From positions 62,001 to 126,000 of the forward strand of contig JAUHWL010000003.1 in the NCBI GenBank assembly GCA_030424545.1: a stretch of 64,000 nt of DNA, written 5' to 3'. Positions 1 through 57,771 of the stretch are shown piece after piece. This stretch comes from Bacteroidia bacterium. Lineage in GTDB: Bacteria; Bacteroidota; Bacteroidia; Flavobacteriales; Schleiferiaceae. The notes below the pieces were generated by a model. That model was not told where the DNA came from. It did not search any database and saw only the letters and a program-made list of their open reading frames with translations. Each line of letters opens with the position of its first letter. Within the stretch, counting starts at the first letter, position 1. The translations under genes and the position numbers were made by a program.

Positions 1-226
1 GGAATCTTCTATGGTTGCAAAAGGCAAAAGCTCTGTGCACACAGCTATGGCCAGAACAGTAGGGTTGCCGGTAGCTATAACCGCAAAATTGATTTTAACA
101 GGAAAAATTGTGACCCCCGGAGTACACAGGCCTATAACCAAAGAAATATATCTACCGGTGTTAAAAGAGCTAGAGGAGCATGGAATTGTATTTACTGAAA
201 AAGAGATTCCCTATTTGGGATATTGA
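1..226 (+). CDS. Saccharopine dehydrogenase, C-terminal fragment
   Basis: This reading frame enters from the left edge (first full codon at base 2) and ends with TGA at 224-226, so only the last 74 residues are seen. The visible part carries the run MARTVGLPVAITAKLILTGK, followed by a GVHRP element and a segment ending VLKELEEHGI. I recognise this as the C-terminal lobe of the saccharopine dehydrogenase / saccharopine reductase family (NADP-dependent, lysine metabolism). The ATG at base 11 is internal. The enzyme's N-terminal Rossmann domain and its exact direction in lysine synthesis or breakdown cannot be judged from here. No terminator hairpin is obvious after it. Confidence 0.75.
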   Translation, partial: ESSMVAKGKSSVHTAMARTVGLPVAITAKLILTGKIVTPGVHRPITKEIYLPVLKELEEHGIVFTEKEIPYLGY

Positions 227-355
227 TTTTCTATTCAAAAAAACGCAATACATATCCGTATAAATTAAAGGAACGTGTTACCAAAACTTTAATATTTAGC
301 ACACATTATTAATTATCTATAATTAATGCTATTTTTCTGCCTACAAATTGGGTAT

Positions 356-853
356 ATGAAAACACTTTTTTTGGTAAGACATGCAAAATCTTCTTGGGAA
401 TATGATGGTGTTCATGATTATGACAGGCCGTTAAAAGGAAGTGGTATTAGAGATGCACATATTGTTTCTCAATATTTAGCAAATCGCGTAGATTCTCCTC
501 AAAAATTAATTAGCAGTGCGGCTACCAGAGCTTTGCATACCGCTATGATTTTTGCTAGAAATTTAAACTACCCTTTCTCTAAAATAGAAATTCATGAGGA
601 GCTCTATTTATGTAGTCATAAAGAGATGTTGAGTTTTGTAAAAACATTAGATGATAGTGTTGATTCTGCCATGGTATTTTGCCATAACCCAACCATCACC
701 AATTTTGTAAATAAGTGCATAGATCAAAGTATAGATAACGTGCCAACAACCGGAGTGGCAAGTTTTAATTTTGATATATCTTCTTGGAAAGACGCCACAT
801 TTAATGCGCGTTTAGCTTTATTTGAGTATCCTAAAAAGCACAAAAAAGAATAG
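356..853 (+). CDS. SixA-like histidine phosphatase
   Basis: This is a 165-residue cytosolic protein of the histidine phosphatase (phosphoglycerate-mutase-like) superfamily. The catalytic RHA motif sits at the start (LFLVRHAKSSW, Arg8-His9), where the His would be the phospho-acceptor. The second conserved His lies in FCHNPTITNF. Length and the RHAKSSW signature point to the SixA branch, which removes phosphate from phosphohistidine; its substrate here is unknown. I chose the ATG at 356 because the family starts directly with MKTLFLVRHAK; an in-frame ATG at 326 would add ten unconvincing residues. It lies 12 bases upstream of ppk1, so it probably belongs to the same polyphosphate transcript. 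Confidence 0.8.
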   Translation: MKTLFLVRHAKSSWEYDGVHDYDRPLKGSGIRDAHIVSQYLANRVDSPQKLISSAATRALHTAMIFARNLNYPFSKIEIHEELYLCSHKEMLSFVKTLDDSVDSAMVFCHNPTITNFVNKCIDQSIDNVPTTGVASFNFDISSWKDATFNARLALFEYPKKHKKE

Positions 854-865
854 TAGTAGAACTTT

Positions 866-2938
866 ATGAGTCTTAAAAAAAAATACATCAACCGCGATAA
901 AAGCTGGTTGCAATTTAATGCACGCGTTTTGCAAGAAGCGGCAGATAAAAAAACACCGTTAATAGAGCGGATGCGTTTTTTAGGTATTCACAGTAATAAC
1001 TTAGATGAGTTTTTTAGGGTGCGCTACGCCAGTATAAGGCGCATGAGCGGTTTAAAAGGCAAAAAAATAATGCATGAGTTGGGTGGTTATACGGCCAATG
1101 AGTTATTGCCAGAATTAACCGATTTGGTAATAGACCAGCAAAAAAGATCTCAAGAAATTTACGACAGTTTAATTGAAGAGTTGCGTGAAAATGAGATTTT
1201 TATGATTGACGAAAAGAGCTTGACTGCAAGCCAGCAAGACTTTGTACGAAAATATTATGTAGAAAAAATTAGCCCATCTGTTTTTAATTTAATTCTTAGT
1301 CCAGAAAGGGCTTTTCCAGAACTTAAAGATAAAAGCATTTACCTAGCCATAAAGCTAGAAAACAAGAAAGAGCTTGAAAACCCAGTCTATTCGCTCATAG
1401 AAGTGCCCAGCGAATTAAACGGTCGTTTTGTGATTTTGCCCAAATATGGCAAGCATTACATCATGTATTTAGACGATTTAATTCGATTTAATTTAAATTA
1501 TGTTTTCTTCATTTTTAAGTTTGATCAAATAAGCGCTCATACCATAAAAATTACGCGAGATGCCGAAATGAATATTGACGATGACTTGAGTAAAAGTTTT
1601 TTAGAAAAAATACAGAAAGGAATAAAAGATAGAAAGCAGGCCGACCCCGTTCGTTTTATTTATGATAGAAATATTGATGAGGATGTTTTTGATAAAATAA
1701 AAAAAGGCATGGGCCTAACTCAATATGATAGTTTAATTGCTGGTGGAAAATATCACAACAAAAAAGATTTGATGAAATTTCCCAATGTGGGAGGGCCAGA
1801 GCTTGAATTTGGAAGCCATGAACCAGTAGCTCATCCAGATTTAGACATGGATCACAGCATCTTAAGTGTGCTTGATAAAAAAGACGTGCTTCTTTTTTTG
1901 CCGTACCACTCGTTTTCATTCATCATCCGTTTTATTCGCGAAGCCGCAATAGACCCCAAGGTAGTAAGCATAAACATATCATTGTACAGACTTGCAACCG
2001 AGTCTAGAATTATAAGTGCATTAATTAACGCGGCTAAAAACGGTAAAACAGTTACGGTAGTTGTAGAGCTACAAGCACGGTTTGATGAAGAAAATAACAT
2101 TAAATGGACCAACCGCTTGCGGGCAGAAGGTGTTAAGGTTATTCATGGCGTAGCGGGCTTAAAAGTACACAGCAAGATTTGTTGGGTAAGAAAGGTAGAC
2201 CAAGGCAAGAATAAAGATTATGCAATAGTTGGTACTGGAAATTTTCATGAAGGAACCGCAAAATTTTATACCGATTACCACCTTTTAACAGCCGATAAAC
2301 GGATAACAAAAGAAGTACGTAAAGTTTTTGATTTTTTTAAATCAAATTACAAGGTGTATAAATACCAACATCTAATTGTTTCTCCGCATTATACACGTGG
2401 TGGCTTGGTAAGGTTAATCAATAACGAAATAGAAAACGCAAAAAAAGGGCTGCCATCAGGTATGATTTTAAAAATGAATAGCCTTAGCGATTTAGATTTA
2501 ATAGATAAACTGTACGAGGCAAGCAGCTGTGGCGTAAAAATAAAATTAATTGTACGAGGCATTTGTTCATTAATTCCGCAATTGCCCGGTATAAGTGAAA
2601 ATATAGAAGCAATAAGTATAGTAGATAAATATTTAGAACACAGCCGTGTATTTGTTTTTACAAATGGTGGAGAGCCAAAATATTACCTTTCTAGTGCCGA
2701 TTGGATGAGGAGAAACGTAGATTACAGGGTAGAGGTGTCTGTACCTATTTATAGCAAGAGTATTCAAAACCAGCTTAAAGATCATTTAAATATTATCTGG
2801 AGTGATAATGTGAAAAGCAGATTGCATAATCAAGAGCAAAACAACGCATATCGAAAAATATCGGGTACACTTGTCCGATCTCAAGAAGAAATGTTTAATT
2901 ATGTGCTCAAATCATCAAAGAAAAACCAACTAGTTTGA
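866..2938 (+). CDS. ppk1: Polyphosphate kinase 1
   Basis: A 690-residue protein matching the normal length of Ppk1, which reversibly polymerises the gamma phosphate of ATP into inorganic polyphosphate. The N-terminal helical domain is recognisable (INRDKSWLQFNARVLQEA and HSNNLDEFFRVR). The catalytic phospholipase-D-like core carries GLKVHSK with His435, the equivalent of the autophosphorylated histidine, then TGNFHEGTAKFYTDYHLLTA. It sits between a SixA-like phosphatase and ppx. Its TGA stop overlaps the TTG start of ppx in the tetramer TTGA, so translation of the kinase and the exopolyphosphatase is probably coupled. Confidence 0.95.
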   Translation: MSLKKKYINRDKSWLQFNARVLQEAADKKTPLIERMRFLGIHSNNLDEFFRVRYASIRRMSGLKGKKIMHELGGYTANELLPELTDLVIDQQKRSQEIYDSLIEELRENEIFMIDEKSLTASQQDFVRKYYVEKISPSVFNLILSPERAFPELKDKSIYLAIKLENKKELENPVYSLIEVPSELNGRFVILPKYGKHYIMYLDDLIRFNLNYVFFIFKFDQISAHTIKITRDAEMNIDDDLSKSFLEKIQKGIKDRKQADPVRFIYDRNIDEDVFDKIKKGMGLTQYDSLIAGGKYHNKKDLMKFPNVGGPELEFGSHEPVAHPDLDMDHSILSVLDKKDVLLFLPYHSFSFIIRFIREAAIDPKVVSINISLYRLATESRIISALINAAKNGKTVTVVVELQARFDEENNIKWTNRLRAEGVKVIHGVAGLKVHSKICWVRKVDQGKNKDYAIVGTGNFHEGTAKFYTDYHLLTADKRITKEVRKVFDFFKSNYKVYKYQHLIVSPHYTRGGLVRLINNEIENAKKGLPSGMILKMNSLSDLDLIDKLYEASSCGVKIKLIVRGICSLIPQLPGISENIEAISIVDKYLEHSRVFVFTNGGEPKYYLSSADWMRRNVDYRVEVSVPIYSKSIQNQLKDHLNIIWSDNVKSRLHNQEQNNAYRKISGTLVRSQEEMFNYVLKSSKKNQLV

Positions 2939-3843
2939 ATTACGTAAAACTTGCCGCTATAGACATTGGCTCAAACTCTATTCGTTTATTGATAATGAAT
3001 ATTATCCCTACCGATACTTATACCTATTACAGAAAAGTAAGCATGACGCGCTTGCCCGTGCGTTTAGGTGCTGATGTTTTTACCACAGGTAAAATATCTG
3101 ATGCCAACGCCCAACGATTGGTTGATGCCATGCGTGCTTATAGTTATGTAATGAAGGTAAACGGAATTCAAGGGTTTAGAGCCTGTGCAACATCTGCCAT
3201 GCGCGAAGCAAAAAATGGAGCTAAACTTGTAAAGAAAATAGCCAAAGCCACAGGAATAAATATTGAAATAATAAGCGGAGAAGAAGAAGCACGATTGATT
3301 TTTGCCTCTAAAATGTTTGATGTAATTAATCCAACAGAAAAAAACTTTGTTTACATAGATGTTGGTGGTGGAAGCACAGAACTAACCATTTGGGAAAACG
3401 GAGAAATAGTGAATTCTAAAAGCTTTAAAGTGGGTACGGTACGTTTGTTAAATAACCTAGTAAACCCAGACGATTGGAGCGAAATGGAAAGTTGGGTTAA
3501 ATTATCTACGGCTCATATTACTGACCTTGCCATGATTGGTTCTGGGGGAAACATTAACAAAACCCATAAAATGTCTGGTAAAAAAATGGGAGAACCGCTA
3601 TCAATAAAATATTTAAGCACGCAGCTCAAAAAAATAAGCAAGCTTACGCCAGACCAGCGCGTAACGGAATTAGGGTTAAATTTTGACAGAGCAGATGTTA
3701 TTGTACATGCACTAACTATTTATACATCTGTATCTAAATGGGTTGGGGCGCAAAAAATATATGTGCCAAAAATTGGTGTTAGCGATGGCATTGTGCGCGA
3801 TTTGTATCATCGAGATTTTAAATCTCAATATGAACATGAATAG
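2935..3843 (+). CDS. ppx: Exopolyphosphatase, Ppx/GppA family (short form)
   Basis: A 302-residue member of the Ppx/GppA family, an actin-fold phosphatase that degrades polyphosphate or pppGpp. The phosphate-1 motif is AAIDIGSNSIRLLI near the N-terminus; the second glycine-rich ATPase-type motif is IDVGGGSTEL; the catalytic Glu is probably in the SGEEEARLIF segment. It lacks the C-terminal HD-like domain of the long E. coli enzymes, as is usual for about 300-residue versions. The start is TTG at 2935, inside the ppk1 stop region (TTGA); no better in-frame start precedes the conserved motif. Genomic pairing with ppk1 supports polyphosphate as substrate. A bidirectional terminator follows. Confidence 0.9.
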   Translation: MNYVKLAAIDIGSNSIRLLIMNIIPTDTYTYYRKVSMTRLPVRLGADVFTTGKISDANAQRLVDAMRAYSYVMKVNGIQGFRACATSAMREAKNGAKLVKKIAKATGINIEIISGEEEARLIFASKMFDVINPTEKNFVYIDVGGGSTELTIWENGEIVNSKSFKVGTVRLLNNLVNPDDWSEMESWVKLSTAHITDLAMIGSGGNINKTHKMSGKKMGEPLSIKYLSTQLKKISKLTPDQRVTELGLNFDRADVIVHALTIYTSVSKWVGAQKIYVPKIGVSDGIVRDLYHRDFKSQYEHE

Positions 3844-3845
3844 CA

Positions 3846-3888
3846 TAAAAAAAACCGCCTAAAAAGAACTTTTTAAGCGGTCGATTTT
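3846..3888. terminator. Bidirectional terminator between ppx and mscL
   Basis: The arms ACCGCCTAAAAAG (3854-3866) and CTTTTTAAGCGGT (3869-3881) pair with a single C-A mismatch. The left side is a run of eight A (3846-3853), giving a U-tract for mscL transcripts from the minus strand. The right side is weakly T-rich for ppx. The hairpin lies exactly between two convergent genes. Confidence 0.75.
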
Positions 3889-3902
3889 AAAAGGTGTAAA
3901 AC

Positions 3903-4313
3903 TTATTTTTTCAATAAATCTCTAATTTCTCCAAGTAAAACTTCCTCTTTGCTTGGAGCTGGAGGGGCTGCAGGAGCCGCTTCCTCTTTCTTTTTAAACT
4001 TATTGTAAGACTTAATCATAACAAACATAACAAGGCCTACAATAATTAAATTCATAATTGTATCAATCCAAGCGCCATAAAGAATAGCGTTTTCTGGGGT
4101 TGTAACAGTTCCAGATGCATCAATTACGGCTTCGGAAAGTATGTATTTTTGATCTGCAAAACTTGCTCCCCCGGTAAACACACCAACTATAGGCATTACG
4201 ATATTACTCACAAACCCTTTAACAACAGCGCCAATAGCACCGGCCATAATTACGGCAACTGCAAACTCTATCACATTGCCACCTGTAATAAACTCTTTAA
4301 ATTCTTTTAACAT
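3903..4313 (-). CDS. mscL: Large-conductance mechanosensitive channel MscL
   Basis: A 136-residue inner-membrane protein that opens under membrane tension to release solutes on osmotic downshock. It begins with the family hallmark LKEFKEFITGGNVIEFAVAV, followed by AGAIGAVVKGFVSNIVMP: the short N-terminal amphipathic helix and the pore-lining TM1. TM2 is the hydrophobic stretch IDTIMNLIIVGLVMFVMI, followed by a Lys-rich segment and a helical tail (EEVLLGEIRDLLKK). Length and order match the family. It is a single gene, convergent with ppx, with a shared terminator at its 3' end. The upstream region to 4398 is divergent from the next gene. Confidence 0.95.
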   Translation of the reverse strand: MLKEFKEFITGGNVIEFAVAVIMAGAIGAVVKGFVSNIVMPIVGVFTGGASFADQKYILSEAVIDASGTVTTPENAILYGAWIDTIMNLIIVGLVMFVMIKSYNKFKKKEEAAPAAPPAPSKEEVLLGEIRDLLKK

Positions 4314-37705: not shown

Positions 37706-38473
37706 ATGAAAAAACTATTACTCAGCATCGTTGCTATTTTTATTGGTTTTATTGCCATGTCGCAAACTTGTGTGCCCGATACAAGCTTTAAAACACCGGG
37801 TATTTATCCTATTTCAGGAGGATCTTCTACCGGGTTTTATGTTTACATGCCTGATGCAGAAGTTGGATTGATGTACAATCAAGTTATCCAAATCAAAGCA
37901 CCTTCAGATACCATTGTAGATACAATGGGATTCCAAATACCTGCCACGATTGATACCATTCAGATTATTGGCTTTAGCGGGATGCCCGCAAGTATTAGTT
38001 ACCAATGTGACAATGCCGACTGTATTTGGCTTGGTGGAGACAATGGCTGCGCAACCTTTACAGGCGTGCCAACTCAGGCAGAAGTAGGGCTTCATGTTAT
38101 TGATATTGTTGCTGTAGGTAGCGTAAACGTGGGGATTTTTGGTACCCTTACAGATACCATAAAGTTTAAAATGGAATTAAAAGTTGTACCCAAAACAGGA
38201 ATCAATGAATTTCTATCCTCGGCATCGGTTAAACTATTTCCAAACCCCACATCCAATTTTTCTAAGCTAAGTTTTCAAGCGGTATCGGCAAACCCATACA
38301 ATTTGAGATTAATAGATGTAACCGGAAGAACGGTAAGAACGTATAATGGCCAAACAAAACCTGGTTTTAATGAATTATTGATAGAGAGAAATGGATTGCC
38401 AAACGGTTTATACTTCTATAGTTTAGAAATAGGAGGAGAGGCCGTATCAGGTAGAATGGCGATAACAGATTAA
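37706..38473 (+). CDS. T9SS type A secreted protein, unknown
   Basis: A 255-residue secreted protein with a signal peptide (LLLSIVAIFIGFIAMSQ). Residues about 20-165 look like an extracellular beta domain with repeated Asp-Thr-Ile segments (PSDTIVDTMGFQIP) and several cysteines (CDNADCIWLGGDNGC). The last 80 residues are a T9SS type A sorting domain (LFPNPTSNFSKLSF ... VSGRMAITD). I do not recognise the passenger domain. It is preceded by an unusually perfect promoter and shares one base with the rnz start codon, so an exported protein and a tRNA nuclease are co-transcribed. Confidence 0.82.
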   Translation: MKKLLLSIVAIFIGFIAMSQTCVPDTSFKTPGIYPISGGSSTGFYVYMPDAEVGLMYNQVIQIKAPSDTIVDTMGFQIPATIDTIQIIGFSGMPASISYQCDNADCIWLGGDNGCATFTGVPTQAEVGLHVIDIVAVGSVNVGIFGTLTDTIKFKMELKVVPKTGINEFLSSASVKLFPNPTSNFSKLSFQAVSANPYNLRLIDVTGRTVRTYNGQTKPGFNELLIERNGLPNGLYFYSLEIGGEAVSGRMAITD

Positions 38474-42208: not shown

Positions 42209-42709
42209 ATGAAAAATTCAGCAATTCTTTTTGGTGGCTTAATTTTATTAGCAGCCACGCAAGTAAAAGCACAAAACACAACATCTCAAGAATTAAATGC
42301 ACAACCTCCAGCCGTTGTGATGGAGTTAACAACTCAAAATTCTTTAACACACCAAATTGGTGAATCTGAAACAAATGGTACTACCAATTCCTATGTAGGA
42401 GAGCAACCACAATCAAAACAGCAAAGGATATATAATTTAACAGATGAGTATCCGCAGTCTGTAGAAATGCAAATTTTACCAGGTTCTGCGCCAAGTGTTT
42501 TTATAGTGAGAGCACCAAACAACGAAAAAATAATTGACGTACAGGTGCTAGATTTTAACGGAACTCCCATTCCTGTACGAATTGGCAATTTGTTGAATAA
42601 ACCCCAAGACAAGGAGTTGGATATGGGCTTTGAAACAGGCGTACCTAGACATATTGTGGTAAAAACAGAACAAGGTATATATACAAAACAGCTTGTGTTA
42701 ACCCGTTAA
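42209..42709 (+). CDS. Secreted protein, first of two tandem paralogs
   Basis: A 166-residue exported protein with a signal peptide (AILFGGLILLAATQVKA) and a Thr/Gln/Asn-rich variable segment. The conserved C-terminal half begins at about residue 84 with VEMQILPGSAPSVFIVRAPN and ends PRHIVVKTEQGIYTKQLVLTR. This part looks like a compact beta domain, perhaps Ig-like. I know no family name. It is closely related to the gene at 43035, sharing even the 5' untranslated sequence AAAAACACAACATCATG and a terminator with GTTGCAAC arms, so the two arose by tandem duplication. Confidence 0.75.
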   Translation: MKNSAILFGGLILLAATQVKAQNTTSQELNAQPPAVVMELTTQNSLTHQIGESETNGTTNSYVGEQPQSKQQRIYNLTDEYPQSVEMQILPGSAPSVFIVRAPNNEKIIDVQVLDFNGTPIPVRIGNLLNKPQDKELDMGFETGVPRHIVVKTEQGIYTKQLVLTR

Positions 42710-43034: not shown

Positions 43035-43520
43035 ATGAAAAATTTAGCAAGCTTATTTACCGCAGCAGTTTTAGTTTTAGCAACATCTGCAACTGCACAA
43101 AACACAACCGCGCAAAACAGAAATGCGCAACCCCATAACACAATTTCTGCTACAACGGCCACCAACACAATAACACATCAAAACAATGGGGTATCATCTA
43201 CAACCACTACGGGAAACGTTTTAAACAATCAGCAACGTGAGCATGATTTATACACTAACGATGCACAGGAAGTAGACATGCAAATTTTACCAGGGTCTTC
43301 TCCAGGTATTTTTATTGTAAGAGCACCGAACAATGAAACTATTTTATCTGTACAGGTAATAGATTTTAGAGGAACCCCAATGCCTGTAAGAATTGGTAAT
43401 TTTATGAATAAACCACAAGACAAAGAATTGGATATGGGTTTTGAGAATGGTGCTCCTCGCCATGTAATTGTAAAAACTACAGGCGGTATTTATACCAAAC
43501 AAATAGTAATGAAACGCTAA
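43035..43520 (+). CDS. Secreted protein, second of two tandem paralogs
   Basis: A 161-residue exported protein with a signal peptide ending near ATSATAQ, a Thr/Asn-rich segment with runs such as TTATNTITHQNNG, and a conserved C-terminal domain (VDMQILPGSSPGIFIVRAPN ... PRHVIVKTTGGIYTKQIVMKR). It is the clear sister of the gene at 42209, with near-identical domain but a diverged linker and a different promoter region (inverted repeat instead of direct repeats). Function is unknown. The Gln/Asn/Thr-rich N-terminal part suggests an exposed flexible region. It ends at a strong bidirectional terminator. Confidence 0.78.
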   Translation: MKNLASLFTAAVLVLATSATAQNTTAQNRNAQPHNTISATTATNTITHQNNGVSSTTTTGNVLNNQQREHDLYTNDAQEVDMQILPGSSPGIFIVRAPNNETILSVQVIDFRGTPMPVRIGNFMNKPQDKELDMGFENGAPRHVIVKTTGGIYTKQIVMKR

Positions 43521-52291: not shown

Positions 52292-53146
52292 ATGAAATAT
52301 CTCGTTTACATTTTTTTATTTGGTGCTTTAGCATGTACAAAATATGAAGTTAAAGATGCTGGCAACAATCAACCTCCGGTAGATTTTACGGTTACAGAAA
52401 TTGCAAAAGTGAGTTACATAAACAAATTGTTTATTACACTATTAGGAGCAAAACCAACCGAGCAGCAAAGTACTGCGGCAATGGCTCAACTAAATGTAGA
52501 CCCTAAATCGCAATCAGTAAGAGAATCTTTGGTACTCTCAATAATTAATGAAGATGATTATGAATACAAAGTTTGGCAAGATGCCAGAGGAGAAGTTTTA
52601 GATGGAGTTGATACTGCAACTATTAGATTAGAATATAACAGAGCCATATATTTTTACAACAACTCATCTGGAAATACAAAAGATTATTGGCAAGCAGAAA
52701 TAGCCAGATTGGCTTTGATTTTAGACATCCCCAAGGAGTTAAAAGCTAATCTAATTACAATACCAGAAATGCACAGCAGGGCGGTAAACAATGGTATTTA
52801 TGATGATATAAATATGGGCACAGAGAATTTTGTAGTTTCTGTTTTTCAGAATTTCTTTTTCCGTTATCCCACAAATTCAGAATTAAGCGAATGCAAAAAA
52901 ATGGTAGACGGAAAACAAGCCGTACTATTTTTACAAGTAGGTAATTCCAAAACAGATTTTTTAAATGTTGTTTTTACAAGCACCTCTTATTTTGAAGGGC
53001 AAATTGTTAACGCATACCTAAAGTATTTATTTAGAAACCCTACATCTCAGGAATTAAGCATTGAAACAAAAGCCTACCAAACACATAAAAACTATGATCA
53101 ATTACAAATTCAAATATTAGCGTCAGATGAATATTTCTATGATTAA
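52292..53146 (+). CDS. Lipoprotein of DUF1549-like type, gene 1 of envelope operon
   Basis: A 284-residue lipoprotein (lipobox Cys15, LFGALAC). The mature protein is helical and contains several copies of a short motif: LLGAKPTEQQ, NFFFRYPTNSEL and KYLFRNPTSQEL. An R-x-PT-x-x-EL signature after an aromatic strand is reminiscent of the DUF1549/DUF1553 proteins of planctomycetes (RLLGRPPTEEE-like), so I see a distant relation, not an assignment. It is the first gene of a tightly packed five-gene unit; the next gene begins eight bases before its stop. Confidence 0.6.
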   Translation: MKYLVYIFLFGALACTKYEVKDAGNNQPPVDFTVTEIAKVSYINKLFITLLGAKPTEQQSTAAMAQLNVDPKSQSVRESLVLSIINEDDYEYKVWQDARGEVLDGVDTATIRLEYNRAIYFYNNSSGNTKDYWQAEIARLALILDIPKELKANLITIPEMHSRAVNNGIYDDINMGTENFVVSVFQNFFFRYPTNSELSECKKMVDGKQAVLFLQVGNSKTDFLNVVFTSTSYFEGQIVNAYLKYLFRNPTSQELSIETKAYQTHKNYDQLQIQILASDEYFYD

Positions 53147-53621
53147 ATATTTTGCTGCAGCCTTTTTGGTATTTACGCTCATAGCTTGTAAAAAGCAAGT
53201 TGTAACAGATTATCAAATCAAAACTTTACATCTTGATTCAGAATCAGGCAACAAGGTAAATTTAAAGAGCGATTTGCAACTCATAACAATAATGCATGCT
53301 GATGTGTTTGGGACATCCATTTCTAGCGAAAAGCTGAAAAGTCTCAACCAAACCTATGCTTCTTTTGGCGATAAGGATATTGTTATTGAGAAAATAACAC
53401 AGTATTTTTTATCTGATGCTGCAGCGCAAATCCCAACAGATGGATATATGCGTGCCAATTTAGATCAATTTATTCCGGCTACTTATATTAAGTTTTTTGT
53501 TAGAAACCCTACCGAAGCGGAACTATGGTACTTTAAAGAGTTAATTCAAAAAGATGGTACAATAACAGCCAGAGACGTTTATTATGCATTTTTAACCGCA
53601 GAAGAATATAAATACTATTGA
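53139..53621 (+). CDS. Lipoprotein with the same PT-EL motif, gene 2
   Basis: A 160-residue lipoprotein (lipobox Cys17, TLIAC). It carries the motif KFFVRNPTEAELWYFKEL, matching the repeats in the preceding gene, and further upstream a helix block (MHADVFGTSISSEKLKSL). The close motif match suggests that genes 1 and 2 were once one domain or share a fold. I chose the ATG at 53139, overlapping gene 1 by eight bases; an ATG at 53127 would add four residues. The function is unknown. Confidence 0.6.
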   Translation: MIKYFAAAFLVFTLIACKKQVVTDYQIKTLHLDSESGNKVNLKSDLQLITIMHADVFGTSISSEKLKSLNQTYASFGDKDIVIEKITQYFLSDAAAQIPTDGYMRANLDQFIPATYIKFFVRNPTEAELWYFKELIQKDGTITARDVYYAFLTAEEYKYY

Positions 53622-53622
53622 G

Positions 53623-54924
53623 ATGAACAGACGAAGTTTTGTGAAAAAGGTAGGTTTAACTGCGGCAGGCGTTTTAACGCTTCCTTATATTTTACCAACG
53701 GGTAGGTTGTTTGCAGCAACTGGGAGCAGAAAAGCCAATCATGTTGTTTTTTGCCTGTTTGCGGGTGGGGTAAGGAGTATAGAATCTATTTATAAAAATG
53801 ATGGCAACTTAATGCCCAATATGCTCAATGGTACCGAGCCTATAAGTGCAGATATTATTAACTCGATGTCGCCATTGCCATCTAGCCCGCTTATACAGCC
53901 TTTACAAAATAGTGGTACTTTGTTTCGTCAATTTAGATTTGGTTCTGGGCCAACAGGGCATTTTAACGGCCACACAACAGCCATTACTGGGCAACATACT
54001 AACAATACATTAAGCTTAAGAGAGCATCCAAGTTTTCCAACTGTTTTTGAATTGTATAGAAAACATTCAAACCCAATAGGTGCGGCCAAAAACACATGGT
54101 GGGTAAGCAATTCTTCAAATTTGTATCCCATTCTTAATTATAGTCAGTATCCTGGATACGGGCCAGAATTTGGTGCAAATCAAATATCACCTTCTAGCTT
54201 TTTTAGCTCAAGAACCAAAGACGTATTAGATGCCGATTTAAACCTAAATGCGAATGAAAAACTTGCCATTTCTGATATGCGAAATTTTTTAAACTACAAT
54301 TTTGCAGGCGGTTTAGATCAATTGGCAAACGTTAAAAATACCCAAGCAGAAGCAGAGCAAATACAAGCGTGGATTAAAAAAATGATTGGTGAATACAAGG
54401 CTGGTTTGCACAGTAATCCGTGGGGAATTAGCGGTGGTATGAATGGCGATATGCGCAATGTATTTTATGCGGAAGAAATTATTAAAGAATTCACTCCAGA
54501 GTTATTGGTTGTGAACATGACGGACGTTGATGTAGCCCATACCAACTTTTCTGGCTATTGTAATAATTTACGCAAGGCGGATTGGGCGGTTGCACATTTG
54601 TGGAATACCATACAAAATACACCCGGAATGGCCAACGATACTGTCTTAATTGTGGCGCCAGAAATAGGCAGAAACGGTCAAACCAATAGTTTGGTAGATG
54701 CGAATGGCCGATTTGCTTTAGACCATACCAGTAGTGACCCGATAGCAAGAGAAATATTTTGTTTGATTGCAGGTCCACAAGGCGTAGTAGAACAAGGAAA
54801 AGTAATCAACAACATTGAAGGCGAGAGCATAGATATAGTTCCAACTATTGCCGATATTTTAGGTTTTAAGAATGGTGCTTCGGGTATTTTACCTGGAAGT
54901 ACTCTAACAAATGCGTTTATATGA
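53623..54924 (+). CDS. Tat-exported DUF1501-like protein, gene 3
   Basis: A 433-residue protein. The Tat signal is complete: MNRRSFVKKVGLTAAGVLTL, with the twin Arg at 3-4. The fold resembles DUF1501 of the alkaline-phosphatase superfamily: HVVFCLFAGGVRSIES near the start, GHFNGHTTAITGQHT, a likely metal site MTDVDVAHTNFSGY, then VLIVAPEIGRNGQTNS and FALDHTSSDPIAREIF with another His. Tat export fits a protein that is folded with its metal in the cytosol. The substrate, likely a phosphate or sulfate ester if the activity is retained, is unknown. It ends in an ATGA overlap with gene 4. Confidence 0.72.
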   Translation: MNRRSFVKKVGLTAAGVLTLPYILPTGRLFAATGSRKANHVVFCLFAGGVRSIESIYKNDGNLMPNMLNGTEPISADIINSMSPLPSSPLIQPLQNSGTLFRQFRFGSGPTGHFNGHTTAITGQHTNNTLSLREHPSFPTVFELYRKHSNPIGAAKNTWWVSNSSNLYPILNYSQYPGYGPEFGANQISPSSFFSSRTKDVLDADLNLNANEKLAISDMRNFLNYNFAGGLDQLANVKNTQAEAEQIQAWIKKMIGEYKAGLHSNPWGISGGMNGDMRNVFYAEEIIKEFTPELLVVNMTDVDVAHTNFSGYCNNLRKADWAVAHLWNTIQNTPGMANDTVLIVAPEIGRNGQTNSLVDANGRFALDHTSSDPIAREIFCLIAGPQGVVEQGKVINNIEGESIDIVPTIADILGFKNGASGILPGSTLTNAFI

Positions 54925-55814
54925 AACTAAAAGCGCTGGTTGTTTTAGGATTTTTATTTGCGGCTGTTTTTTACAGTTGCGAAAGAAAAGTAGATGATCC
55001 AATTGCAAATCCTTTTGAAGGAAATACAGAGGATACGACATCAAATAATCCATTTGCTGTGAACAGTATTCAAGGATTGCATAAAAATATTTTTGCCGTA
55101 AAATGCGCCAATCCAACCTGCCATGACGGTACTTTTGAACCAGATTTTAGAACGGTTCAAAGCACTTACAATTCACTTGTGTATCAGCCAGTAATAAAAA
55201 ACAATGCGCAAAACAGTTTTAAGTACAGAGTAATTCCCGGTAATATTAAAGACAGTTGGTTGGTAGAGCGACTTATTACTGCCGACCAAAATTTAGGCAA
55301 AATGCCCTTGTATGCACCAGAGTTAACGCAGCAAGAATTATTGTGGGTTTACGGATGGATTACGGATGGTGCTAAAGATTTAAATGGAAATGTTTCTGTT
55401 TTTCCCAATAAACCCCCAACCGTAAATTACTTTGTGGCTTATAATTCAAATAATGATCGGATTGATACCAATCGCCTGTCTGGGTGGTCTTCTCCGTTTT
55501 TTGTTTCTATGCCATCAACTTTTTCAGTTGTAATTTCGGTAGAGGATGATAGCACTGCTGCTCCGAACTTACTAGTAAATGAGTTAAAAGTTTCTTTGAT
55601 ACGAGATGATTTTACAAATGCTCAAACTATTCAAGCCACATATTTAAGTGGAAAATTTTGGGTAGCTAGTTTAAACACGGCAAACTTTCCAAGCAACACA
55701 CAACTGTATTTCAGGTATTTTGTGCAGGATACAGATAGCCCAACGGTATCGGAATTTCCCAGAAACGACTCGCAATATTGGTATAAAGAAAATGCATCGT
55801 TTATTATTCAATAA
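54921..55814 (+). CDS. Cytochrome-like lipoprotein with CX4CH motif, gene 4
   Basis: A 297-residue lipoprotein (lipobox Cys20, VFYSC). Residues 50-150 look like a small cytochrome c domain of the planctomycete type: KCANPTCHDG with Cys62, Cys67 and His68, later VIPGNIKDSWLVERL, a candidate axial Met128 in KMPLY, and YGWITDGAKDLNG. The heme motif would be CX4CH rather than the usual CX2CH. After residue 155 a beta domain follows, with a PPTVNYF segment like an Ig-type module. It may pass electrons to or from the DUF1501-like partner. It overlaps both neighbours. Confidence 0.68.
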   Translation: MKLKALVVLGFLFAAVFYSCERKVDDPIANPFEGNTEDTTSNNPFAVNSIQGLHKNIFAVKCANPTCHDGTFEPDFRTVQSTYNSLVYQPVIKNNAQNSFKYRVIPGNIKDSWLVERLITADQNLGKMPLYAPELTQQELLWVYGWITDGAKDLNGNVSVFPNKPPTVNYFVAYNSNNDRIDTNRLSGWSSPFFVSMPSTFSVVISVEDDSTAAPNLLVNELKVSLIRDDFTNAQTIQATYLSGKFWVASLNTANFPSNTQLYFRYFVQDTDSPTVSEFPRNDSQYWYKENASFIIQ

Positions 55815-56290
55815 TGAAAAGAACACCAAAACATAGTGAGCTAATTAGAAAGATTGCGTTTTCTTTTTTACTCATATTATTAACAGTAGTAAGCATTTCT
55901 TCATGCAAAGAAGATTTTCCAATTAGTGAAGTGCCAGAAATTAGCCTTGTTGCCTTTGGCCCAGATACAGTGGTTCAATTTACAGATTCCATCTTCTTTA
56001 GTCTAAATTATAAAGATGGTAATGGAGATTTAGGAGAGAATGATACCGATGATGACAATTTGATTGTGACAGATACGCGCATTGGTGTGCGTTACACATA
56101 CAGAATTAAACAATTGGTTCCGGGGGGCAGCAAAGTTCCTATAAACGGAAATCTAAATTTTAGTATTTCAAATACATTTATTACAGATTTAAGTTCAGCC
56201 GAAAAACTAAGTTACAGCATCTATGTTGTAGATAGGGCGGGGAATAAAAGCAATGTGATTACAACAAAGTCTATATGGGTGGTTGAGTAG
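55814..56290 (+). CDS. Small lipoprotein with acidic loop, gene 5
   Basis: A 158-residue lipoprotein (lipobox Cys31, SISSC). The mature part is a single beta domain ending YSIYVVDRAGNKSN and a WVVE tail, like an Ig-type or fibronectin-type fold. Near residue 68 it has an acidic loop, DGNGDLGENDTDDDN, resembling a Ca2+-binding loop. It shares one base with the stop of gene 4. It might be a binding or anchoring component of the complex; there is no direct evidence. Confidence 0.62.
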   Translation: MKRTPKHSELIRKIAFSFLLILLTVVSISSCKEDFPISEVPEISLVAFGPDTVVQFTDSIFFSLNYKDGNGDLGENDTDDDNLIVTDTRIGVRYTYRIKQLVPGGSKVPINGNLNFSISNTFITDLSSAEKLSYSIYVVDRAGNKSNVITTKSIWVVE

Positions 56291-56403: not shown

Positions 56404-57771
56404 ATGAAAAGTATTTTTTACACGCTATTCCTTGCATTTTTTAGCAGTCTTACCATATCCGCCCAAACAGATTCTACTTTTATTAGAAAAATATATGATG
56501 AGGCATTAAATAATGGAGAGTCCTACGAAAACCTCCGCTATTTGTGCAAAGAAATTGGGAATAGAATTACCGGTTCTGCCGAAGCCGAAATGGCGGTTTA
56601 CTGGGGCAAACAAGTACTTACCAAATACAATTTTGATACGGTTTATCTGCAACCCATAGAGGTGCCCCATTGGGAGCGAGGTACCAAAGAGGCGGCATGG
56701 GTTTTAAATACTTCTGGCGAATATTTTAAGATTAACATTTTGGCGTTAGGTGGATCGGTGGGAACAAATGGAATGATGGATGCCGAATTACTGGTGTTGG
56801 AAACGCTTGATGAATTGAAAAAAATGAGCAGGGCCGAAGTAGAAGGCAAAGTGGTGTATTTGGGCGAGGCGTTTAATGCGGCCAATATTCGCACGTTTGA
56901 TAGCTACAGCCAATGCGGTGCCCAACGCTGGAATGGACCCAAAGAAGCACAAAAACTAGGTGCAGCAGGGCTGGTAATTCGTAGCTTGGCTTCAGAGGTT
57001 GATGATCATCCGCATACTGGTTCTTTTGGGTATGATGATGCCTTTAAGAAAATTCCCGCAGCAGCCATAAGTACGGCAGATTGTAACCAAATAGAAGCCT
57101 GGAGCAAACAGGGGCAACTAAGCATAAAAATGGAAATGGATTGCCGCTGGTATGATAACGATACATCTTACAATGTGATTGGTGAGATGACTGGCAAGAC
57201 AGATAAAATAATAAGTTTTGGTGGCCACTTAGATAGTTGGGATGTTGGAGAAGGCGCCCATGATGATGGCGCAGGCATTGTGCATAGCATTGAGGCACTC
57301 CGCATTTTAAAAGAATTGGGCTACAAGCCAGAGCATACGCTGCGTTGTGTACTTTTTATGAACGAAGAAAACGGCAACTTTGGCGGTAAAACCTATGCGG
57401 CCATGGCCAAGGCCAACAACGAAAATCACGTAGCAGCTTTAGAAAGCGATAGAGGCGGGTTTTTACCCTTGGGCTTTGATGTTCGCGGTACCAAAAAGCA
57501 GGTTGAGTTTGTGCAAAAGATTGCGAAACCCTTGCAAAAAGATTTTCAGTTATATACGTTTAAAGAGGGCTACAGTGGCGTAGATATTGGCCCATTACGA
57601 GATTTTTATCCAGACATGGTGCAATTGGGATTGAGCATTAACTCCCAAGAATATTTTAAATACCACCACACAGCAGCTGATGTTTTTGAAGCTGTAAATC
57701 AGCGCGAATTAGAATTAGGTTGTGCAGCCATGGGCGCGATGATTTATTTGTTGGACCAGCACCTGAAATAA
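56404..57771 (+). CDS. M28-family zinc peptidase, exported
   Basis: A 455-residue exported peptidase (signal YTLFLAFFSSLTISAQ). The catalytic metal site of M28 is visible: GGHLDSWDVGEGAHDDGAG (His and Asp), MNEENGNFGG (the Glu pair) and ESDRGGFLPLGF; YHHTAADVFEAV gives the last His. Residues about 115-230 form the inserted PA domain. The overall shape resembles glutamate carboxypeptidases of the PGCP type, which cleave dipeptides or short peptides in the periplasm. It ends two bases from the convergent DHFR-like gene. Confidence 0.9.
   Translation: MKSIFYTLFLAFFSSLTISAQTDSTFIRKIYDEALNNGESYENLRYLCKEIGNRITGSAEAEMAVYWGKQVLTKYNFDTVYLQPIEVPHWERGTKEAAWVLNTSGEYFKINILALGGSVGTNGMMDAELLVLETLDELKKMSRAEVEGKVVYLGEAFNAANIRTFDSYSQCGAQRWNGPKEAQKLGAAGLVIRSLASEVDDHPHTGSFGYDDAFKKIPAAAISTADCNQIEAWSKQGQLSIKMEMDCRWYDNDTSYNVIGEMTGKTDKIISFGGHLDSWDVGEGAHDDGAGIVHSIEALRILKELGYKPEHTLRCVLFMNEENGNFGGKTYAAMAKANNENHVAALESDRGGFLPLGFDVRGTKKQVEFVQKIAKPLQKDFQLYTFKEGYSGVDIGPLRDFYPDMVQLGLSINSQEYFKYHHTAADVFEAVNQRELELGCAAMGAMIYLLDQHLK

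Follow-up and report, generated by a model that had tools for sequence, protein, structure and literature searches.

The five-gene cassette described here is a strongly conserved, previously undescribed cell-envelope module and a distant relative of the cytochrome modules of planctomycetes. It lies in a window of 64,000 nucleotides, by which we mean the whole stretch of DNA that was analyzed, and it consists of five abutting ORFs, g1 to g5, which occupy positions 52292-56290 on the plus strand.

Layout and conservation of the cassette

The genes, with the features assigned to their products, are as follows:
g1, 52292..53146, + strand: 284 aa lipoprotein, all-helical, predicted phycobilisome-linker/DUF4214-like fold, weak likeness to DUF1549
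g2, 53139..53621, + strand: 160 aa lipoprotein, one DUF4214-like repeat, smaller paralogue of g1 by sequence
g3, 53623..54924, + strand: 433 aa Tat-exported protein, DUF1501-like, predicted alkaline phosphatase superfamily fold
g4, 54921..55814, + strand: 297 aa lipoprotein, putative PSCyt1-like monoheme cytochrome c domain followed by a C-terminal domain
g5, 55814..56290, + strand: 158 aa lipoprotein, probable Ig-like domain, acidic DGxGDLG motif

The start of g2 at 53139 gives an 8-base overlap with g1 (an alternative upstream ATG at 53127 would give 20 bases instead), and the three remaining junctions are a 1-base gap between g2 and g3, a 4-base ATGA overlap between g3 and g4 and a 1-base TAATG overlap between g4 and g5. 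Lipoboxes are present in g1 (LACTK), g2 (IACKK), g4 (YSCER) and g5 (SSCKE), each with a cysteine that is invariant in the family alignment, while g3 begins with the twin-arginine signal MNRRSFVKK, whose RR.F/L motif recurs in 75 of 81 g3 sequences. The first-pass annotation of this DNA had described five overlapping or nearly touching genes whose products are all exported, four as lipoproteins and one through the Tat pathway; all four junctions are as it gave them, and the lipoboxes and the twin-arginine signal bear out the export of every product. A scan of the locus for promoters and terminators returned fewer promoter-like sites than in shuffled sequences and no convincing terminator. The M28 peptidase gene that follows 113 nt past g5 (56404-57771, + strand) was considered as a further member and rejected, since no recurrent M28 cluster flanks the related loci. 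Elsewhere in the window, 42209-42709 and 43035-43520 encode tandem exported paralogues of ~160 aa that are very much alike in their C-terminal halves, and 37706-38473 encodes an exported protein with a T9SS-like domain of type A (LFPNPTSN) at its C-terminal end.

We searched 99 related genomes for g3 and, in the same set, for matches to the g1 and g4 profiles. Full-length g3 was found in 14 of the 99, one of which has two copies. Matches to g1 occur in these 14 genomes and in no others, as do strong matches to the g4 profile, which gave additional weak matches to other small cytochrome-like proteins. All 14 loci besides the window share the order g1-g2-g3-g4, and g5, detected with profiles, is present in all of them. 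A contig scan of GTDB yielded 247 loci, of which the best 80 were analyzed. Where named, the carriers among these 80 are Bacteroidota throughout and include Schleiferiaceae, Cryomorphaceae, Chitinophagales, Sphingobacteriales, Saprospiraceae and others. The earlier annotation had taken gene order in related genomes as a check on its reading, with scattered genes speaking against it, and the outcome was in its favor: among the 72 non-redundant loci with enough flank, which come from the best 80 of 247, 69 have the complete series g1-g2-g3-g4-g5 in this order and on a single strand, and the median intergenic gaps over the conserved loci are -4, 9, 1 and -1 nt from the first junction to the last. 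Because order and strand are kept in this way with short gaps, the arrangement is not due to chance.

The three exceptions have g3 alone and come from two Cytophagales MAGs (L055 and L057) and one Saprospiraceae MAG (L082). Both Cytophagales genomes keep g3, g4 and an intact g1-g2 pair, each on a contig of its own; in the Saprospiraceae genome a g4-like gene is present on a contig other than that of g3, and the search for g1 gave no match. We considered these orphan g3 genes as counter-examples to a unit and set this aside, since two of the three genomes have g1 and g4 at other places. The retention of dispersed genes is stronger evidence of joint function than gene order alone. In both Cytophagales genomes the dispersed g1-g2 pair precedes a gene for an exported protein of >300 aa, of one type in the two (LVPMDDSQKDHLKAYG-like; L233:2960-3871 and L234:2951-3877). 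Distribution within Bacteroidota is patchy: of 394 Bacteroidota genomes drawn evenly, the window's own and one other were the only two with full-length g3. The cassette is single-copy in most relatives and is found in a cultured species, Phaeocystidibacter luteus.

Two further observations concern individual loci. Locus L014 (G083) holds, at 75-4209, a decayed cassette in which g1 has a stop codon at the lipobox, g3 has two stops and the first heme cysteine of g4 is replaced by Arg; with several genes broken at once, the cassette may have been lost as a whole, or the sequence may be poor. In 11 loci, L025, L032, L039, L045, L060 and L061 among them, g1 is preceded by a co-directional M20-type dipeptidase gene, often <130 nt away.

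Predicted folds and conserved sites of the products

The search of the window proteins g1-g5 against Pfam and NCBIfam gave no match above cut-off, and the assignments below come from profile-profile comparisons and predicted structures. For g4, hhalign gave 97.5% over 95 columns against the PSCyt1 region of canonical proteins and 96.6% without the signal, compared with 0.3% for the reversed control, in an alignment that covers the PG-S, MP and WI-GA motifs. No sequence scored above the gathering threshold of PSCyt1 (PF07635): the best E was 0.046, matches were seen in 4 of 68 members, and the window g4 had none. The cytochrome-like character first proposed for this gene is supported by remote homology as a PSCyt1-like heme domain, with the difference that all 74 complete g4 proteins have the heme motif CX4CH, whereas that of canonical PSCyt1 is CX2CH. 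In the window protein the motif spans residues 62-68, and Cys62, Cys67, His68, Met128 and Pro129 are invariant over 68 g4 sequences. Cytochrome surveys count CX4CH among heme motifs (PMC10734462, PMC5566968). The window's own genome has a CcsA-type cytochrome c assembly gene, and on the basis of this gene and the heme motif we regard g4 as a putative monoheme c-type cytochrome. A proposed likeness between its C-terminal domain and g5 was dropped, only 3.6% remaining after signal removal (hhalign). At L043:7270-7570, in a MAG labelled complete (CP096135.1), there is a frameshift near the g4 start; the heme region there is intact and also has CX4CH.

In the PDB the g4 profile has its best match in FoxE, an iron oxidoreductase (E 3e-4), and this raises the question of a surface module for electron transfer or metal oxidation, comparable to FoxE, in which g4 would be the active protein and g3 its metal-binding partner. 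We consider this quite improbable, since the match is confined to the MP/WI-GA and PG-S segments of g4, the protein has a single heme motif and the operon has neither a porin nor a multiheme partner.

The g3 alignment matched that of DUF1501, represented by 26 Bacteroidota proteins, with 98.6%, E 1e-15 and 385 columns; without the Tat signal the values were 94.9% and 336 columns, and the reversed-alignment control gave 0.3% (hhalign). Nothing scored above the gathering threshold of PF07394 in the window g3, in 14 members of the family or in the window's own genome, and a PDB sequence search with g3 gave no significant match. Its AlphaFold model (pLDDT 73, pTM 0.82) superimposes on PafA (5tj3) with a VIA-align Z of 24.4 over 306 residues at 3.7 A, and Foldseek places it (2e-9) among PafA, sulfatases and NPP enzymes; a few family members also match Sulfatase or Phosphodiest in Pfam. 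Over 71 aligned sequences with 38-63% identity to the window protein, His113, Asp303, His306, Arg350, Asp367 and His368 show no variation and Glu347 hardly any. These residues are putative metal ligands by a correspondence drawn from motifs. DUF1501 and g3 have in common a His nine residues ahead of TG, ExGR and DH, and g3 has D..H in place of the D.H of DUF1501. We took the DUF1501 motifs from 30 sequences; several of these fail an exact regex for the His pattern, and most DUF1501 sequences examined have the same His at the same spacing. A His nine residues before TG occupies what we take, by sulfatase spacing, to be the nucleophile position. By this motif spacing, His113 would stand at the nucleophile position of sulfatases and phosphatases, where the Thr, Ser or Cys that is the criterion of the alkaline phosphatase superfamily is absent. 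Because the usual catalytic residue is missing, g3 may be inactive or may perform other chemistry.

The fold neighbors of g3 and its few Sulfatase and Phosphodiest matches would also suit a purely hydrolytic complex, in which g3 is a surface-held phosphatase-, sulfatase- or phosphodiesterase-like hydrolase and the cytochrome domain does no more than sense redox state or bind heme structurally. That reading seems to us rather unlikely, given that the nucleophile position holds His in place of a Thr, Ser or Cys and that there is, in g4, an invariant axial Met together with CX4CH, which favors a functional redox heme.

The AF2 model of g1 has a pLDDT of 93. In VIA-align, phycobilisome linkers fill its 37 top rows, from 3ohw at Z 11.3 down to Z 7.5, ahead of an unrelated row at Z 6.3; a Z <13 on a helical protein calls for care. 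Foldseek also ranked linkers first, but with non-significant E-values (0.4 and above), and the profile match to linkers has an E of 1.5e-9 summed over repeats, single PDB segments being weak. Among the 14 members of the g1 alignment, 13 have weak or good DUF4214 matches and 6 have PSD1/DUF1553 matches. Neither g1 nor g2 scored above the DUF4214 (PF13946) gathering threshold, g2 reaching 17.5 bits against 23.2 (E 0.0045) and g1 having no match. Against DUF1549, g1 gave 75% in hhalign, over 55 columns only (reversed control 0.7%, column-shuffled <=0.1%); the window proteins did not match DUF1549/DUF1553 (PF07583/PF07587) and none of the members passed the gathering thresholds of these families, the best E being 0.001 for PSD1 and 0.044 for PSCyt2, PF07583 was not found in the window's own genome, and a DUF1549-type CxxCH occurs in 0 of 75 g1 and 0 of 77 g2 sequences. 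The C-terminal repeat of g1 also aligns with part of DUF1800 (56%, 79 columns; reversed and shuffled controls <=0.2%, hhalign), a family (PF08811) for which the own genome has no match above the gathering score. With 91% between g1 and g2 in hhalign, g2 is, as judged from sequence, a paralogue of g1. These comparisons suggest that DUF1501-type proteins in general may have linker-like partners.

The D-x-x-GDLG motif is invariant in the g5 alignment, and 3 of 13 members match Big_3_2 (Ig-like) weakly, so that an Ig-like domain is probable. Three loci have a second, weaker g5-like gene a few kb past the end of the cassette (L041:8633-9181, L044:12586-13140 and L063:10093-10644). The g3 tree has two deep clades, and two genomes have one cassette of each (L011/L018 and L043/L090). 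In the clade to which the window does not belong, a sixth gene adjoins or lies near g5 in 23 of 24 loci and encodes, where complete, a protein of about 1160-1360 aa. Five such proteins were scanned: each combines CUB with a CHU_C domain for type IX secretion, and PKD is present in all but one, a finding that points to a surface location for the module of that clade. In the window's clade a sixth gene was labelled in 0 of 55 members, some contigs ending too early to tell; the window's own genome has many T9SS CHU_C domains.

A structural or adhesive assembly, in which a catalytically dead g3 fold and its partners form a surface appendage or a gliding-related scaffold, draws on the linker-like g1 and g2, the T9SS CUB/PKD surface protein of one clade and the loss of the standard nucleophile in g3. 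We judge it unlikely: the His/Asp/Arg constellation of g3 is invariant at the level of divergence given above, and an invariant heme site is needless for a structural role.

A possible function of the complex

The functional reading that we put forward, tentatively and at somewhat less than even confidence, is a lipid-anchored complex of a linker-like scaffold, an alkaline phosphatase-fold metalloprotein and a cytochrome that would work on an extracellular polymer by oxidation or hydrolysis, the two kinds of activity that the first-pass annotation had suggested for an enzyme complex on the envelope. Its computed basis is the gene arrangement, its conservation, the co-retention of the genes, the predicted folds of g1 and g3 and the cytochrome signature. 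From this we infer the formation of a complex and its site on the outer membrane: g1-g5 would form a single co-translated operon for a lipid-anchored envelope complex, in which the linker/DUF4214-like helical lipoproteins g1 and g2 would serve as a scaffold that keeps g3, exported folded by the Tat pathway with its presumed metal, beside g4, a monoheme cytochrome c lipoprotein with presumably attached heme, and g5 would be an Ig-like accessory lipoprotein. The target would be an extracellular (poly)saccharide or another ester-bearing polymer, which g3 might bind or cleave at its conserved His/Asp/Glu site, and by a proposed redox coupling g4 would pass electrons to or from g3. In the clade with the sixth gene, the T9SS-secreted CUB/PKD protein probably adds surface binding. 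The link to polysaccharides is suggested by the context of related modules, namely PSCyt genes near sulfatases and DUF1501-DUF1800 pairs beside chitin synthase; the planctomycete modules are themselves of no known function, so this analogy brings no activity to the cassette.

A broader idea, which we hold to be improbable, is that the cassette represents a new class of envelope machine, built from an alkaline phosphatase-fold protein with His for the nucleophile, a CX4CH cytochrome and linker-like lipoproteins, with DUF1549/DUF1553, DUF1800 and g1/g2 as variants within a single linker-like family of partners to DUF1501-type proteins. If true, it would imply a common mechanism for all DUF1501 gene pairs. 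The linker-like fold of g1 offers an initial structural idea on DUF1501 partner proteins. Because the subunits are small and separate, the cassette is mostly single-copy and a cultured carrier exists, deletion, purification and subunit mapping are practical.

Comparison with known systems

No Pfam, NCBIfam or PADLOC family names the proteins of the cassette, and no paper describing it was found within open-access publications; its reading as a defense system was rejected, PADLOC giving a single weak, chance-like match. Among phycobilisome linkers (PF00427) and DUF4214 proteins, the likeness is to the fold and profile of g1, which differs in being a lipoprotein in a non-photosynthetic setting where phycobiliprotein is absent. 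FoxE is a diheme cytochrome; it resembles g4 in the MP/WI-GA and PG-S motif segments, and g4 has one heme motif. The DUF1800-DUF1501 pair shares with the cassette a DUF1501-type Tat protein and an exported helical partner, but is not known to have a cytochrome partner of this sort, and both Pfam families are absent from the window's own genome. This pair is reported to adjoin bacterial chitin synthase genes, its function being left open (PMC5122149).

The closest comparison is with the PSCyt/DUF1501 modules, which were first seen in planctomycetes, where Rhodopirellula baltica has the DUF1549 domain and the DUF1553 domain in 41 copies each (PMC2754498), and which are still termed functionally unknown; in Verrucomicrobia, PSCyt genes lie near sulfatases and occur with carbohydrate-binding modules, again with the function left open (PMC5615132). 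Canonical proteins of this type in Bacteroidota have PSCyt1, DUF1549 and DUF1553 fused; their PSCyt1 part has the motif CX2CH, and another CxxCH follows in DUF1549. The cassette resembles these PSCyt1-DUF1549-DUF1553 proteins and their adjacent DUF1501 gene in its PSCyt1-type cytochrome, its DUF1501-like Tat protein, export, clustering and a short, weakly DUF1549/1553-like motif. It differs in that small, separate lipoproteins take the place of a single fusion protein of >700 aa and one CX4CH heme that of two CX2CH hemes (g1 having no CxxCH), and also in the extra g2 and g5 and the scores below the Pfam cut-offs. The kinship to planctomycete-type modules proposed in the first-pass annotation therefore stands in part: profile-profile comparison with reversed controls supports it for g3 (DUF1501) and g4 (PSCyt1), it is weaker for g1 and it is absent for g5, and the suggested comparison with the Pfam families found remote homology for g3 and g4, with all of g1-g5 below the cut-offs. 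Remote homology of the cassette to the planctomycete-type module is, in our estimate, very likely. Because of the scores below cut-off and the different heme motif, we do not file it under DUF1501, PSCyt1 or DUF1549; it is a distant, compact variant of the PSCyt1-DUF1549-DUF1553/DUF1501 modules, and, as a reduced form of them, it may offer a way to test what the planctomycete cytochrome modules do.
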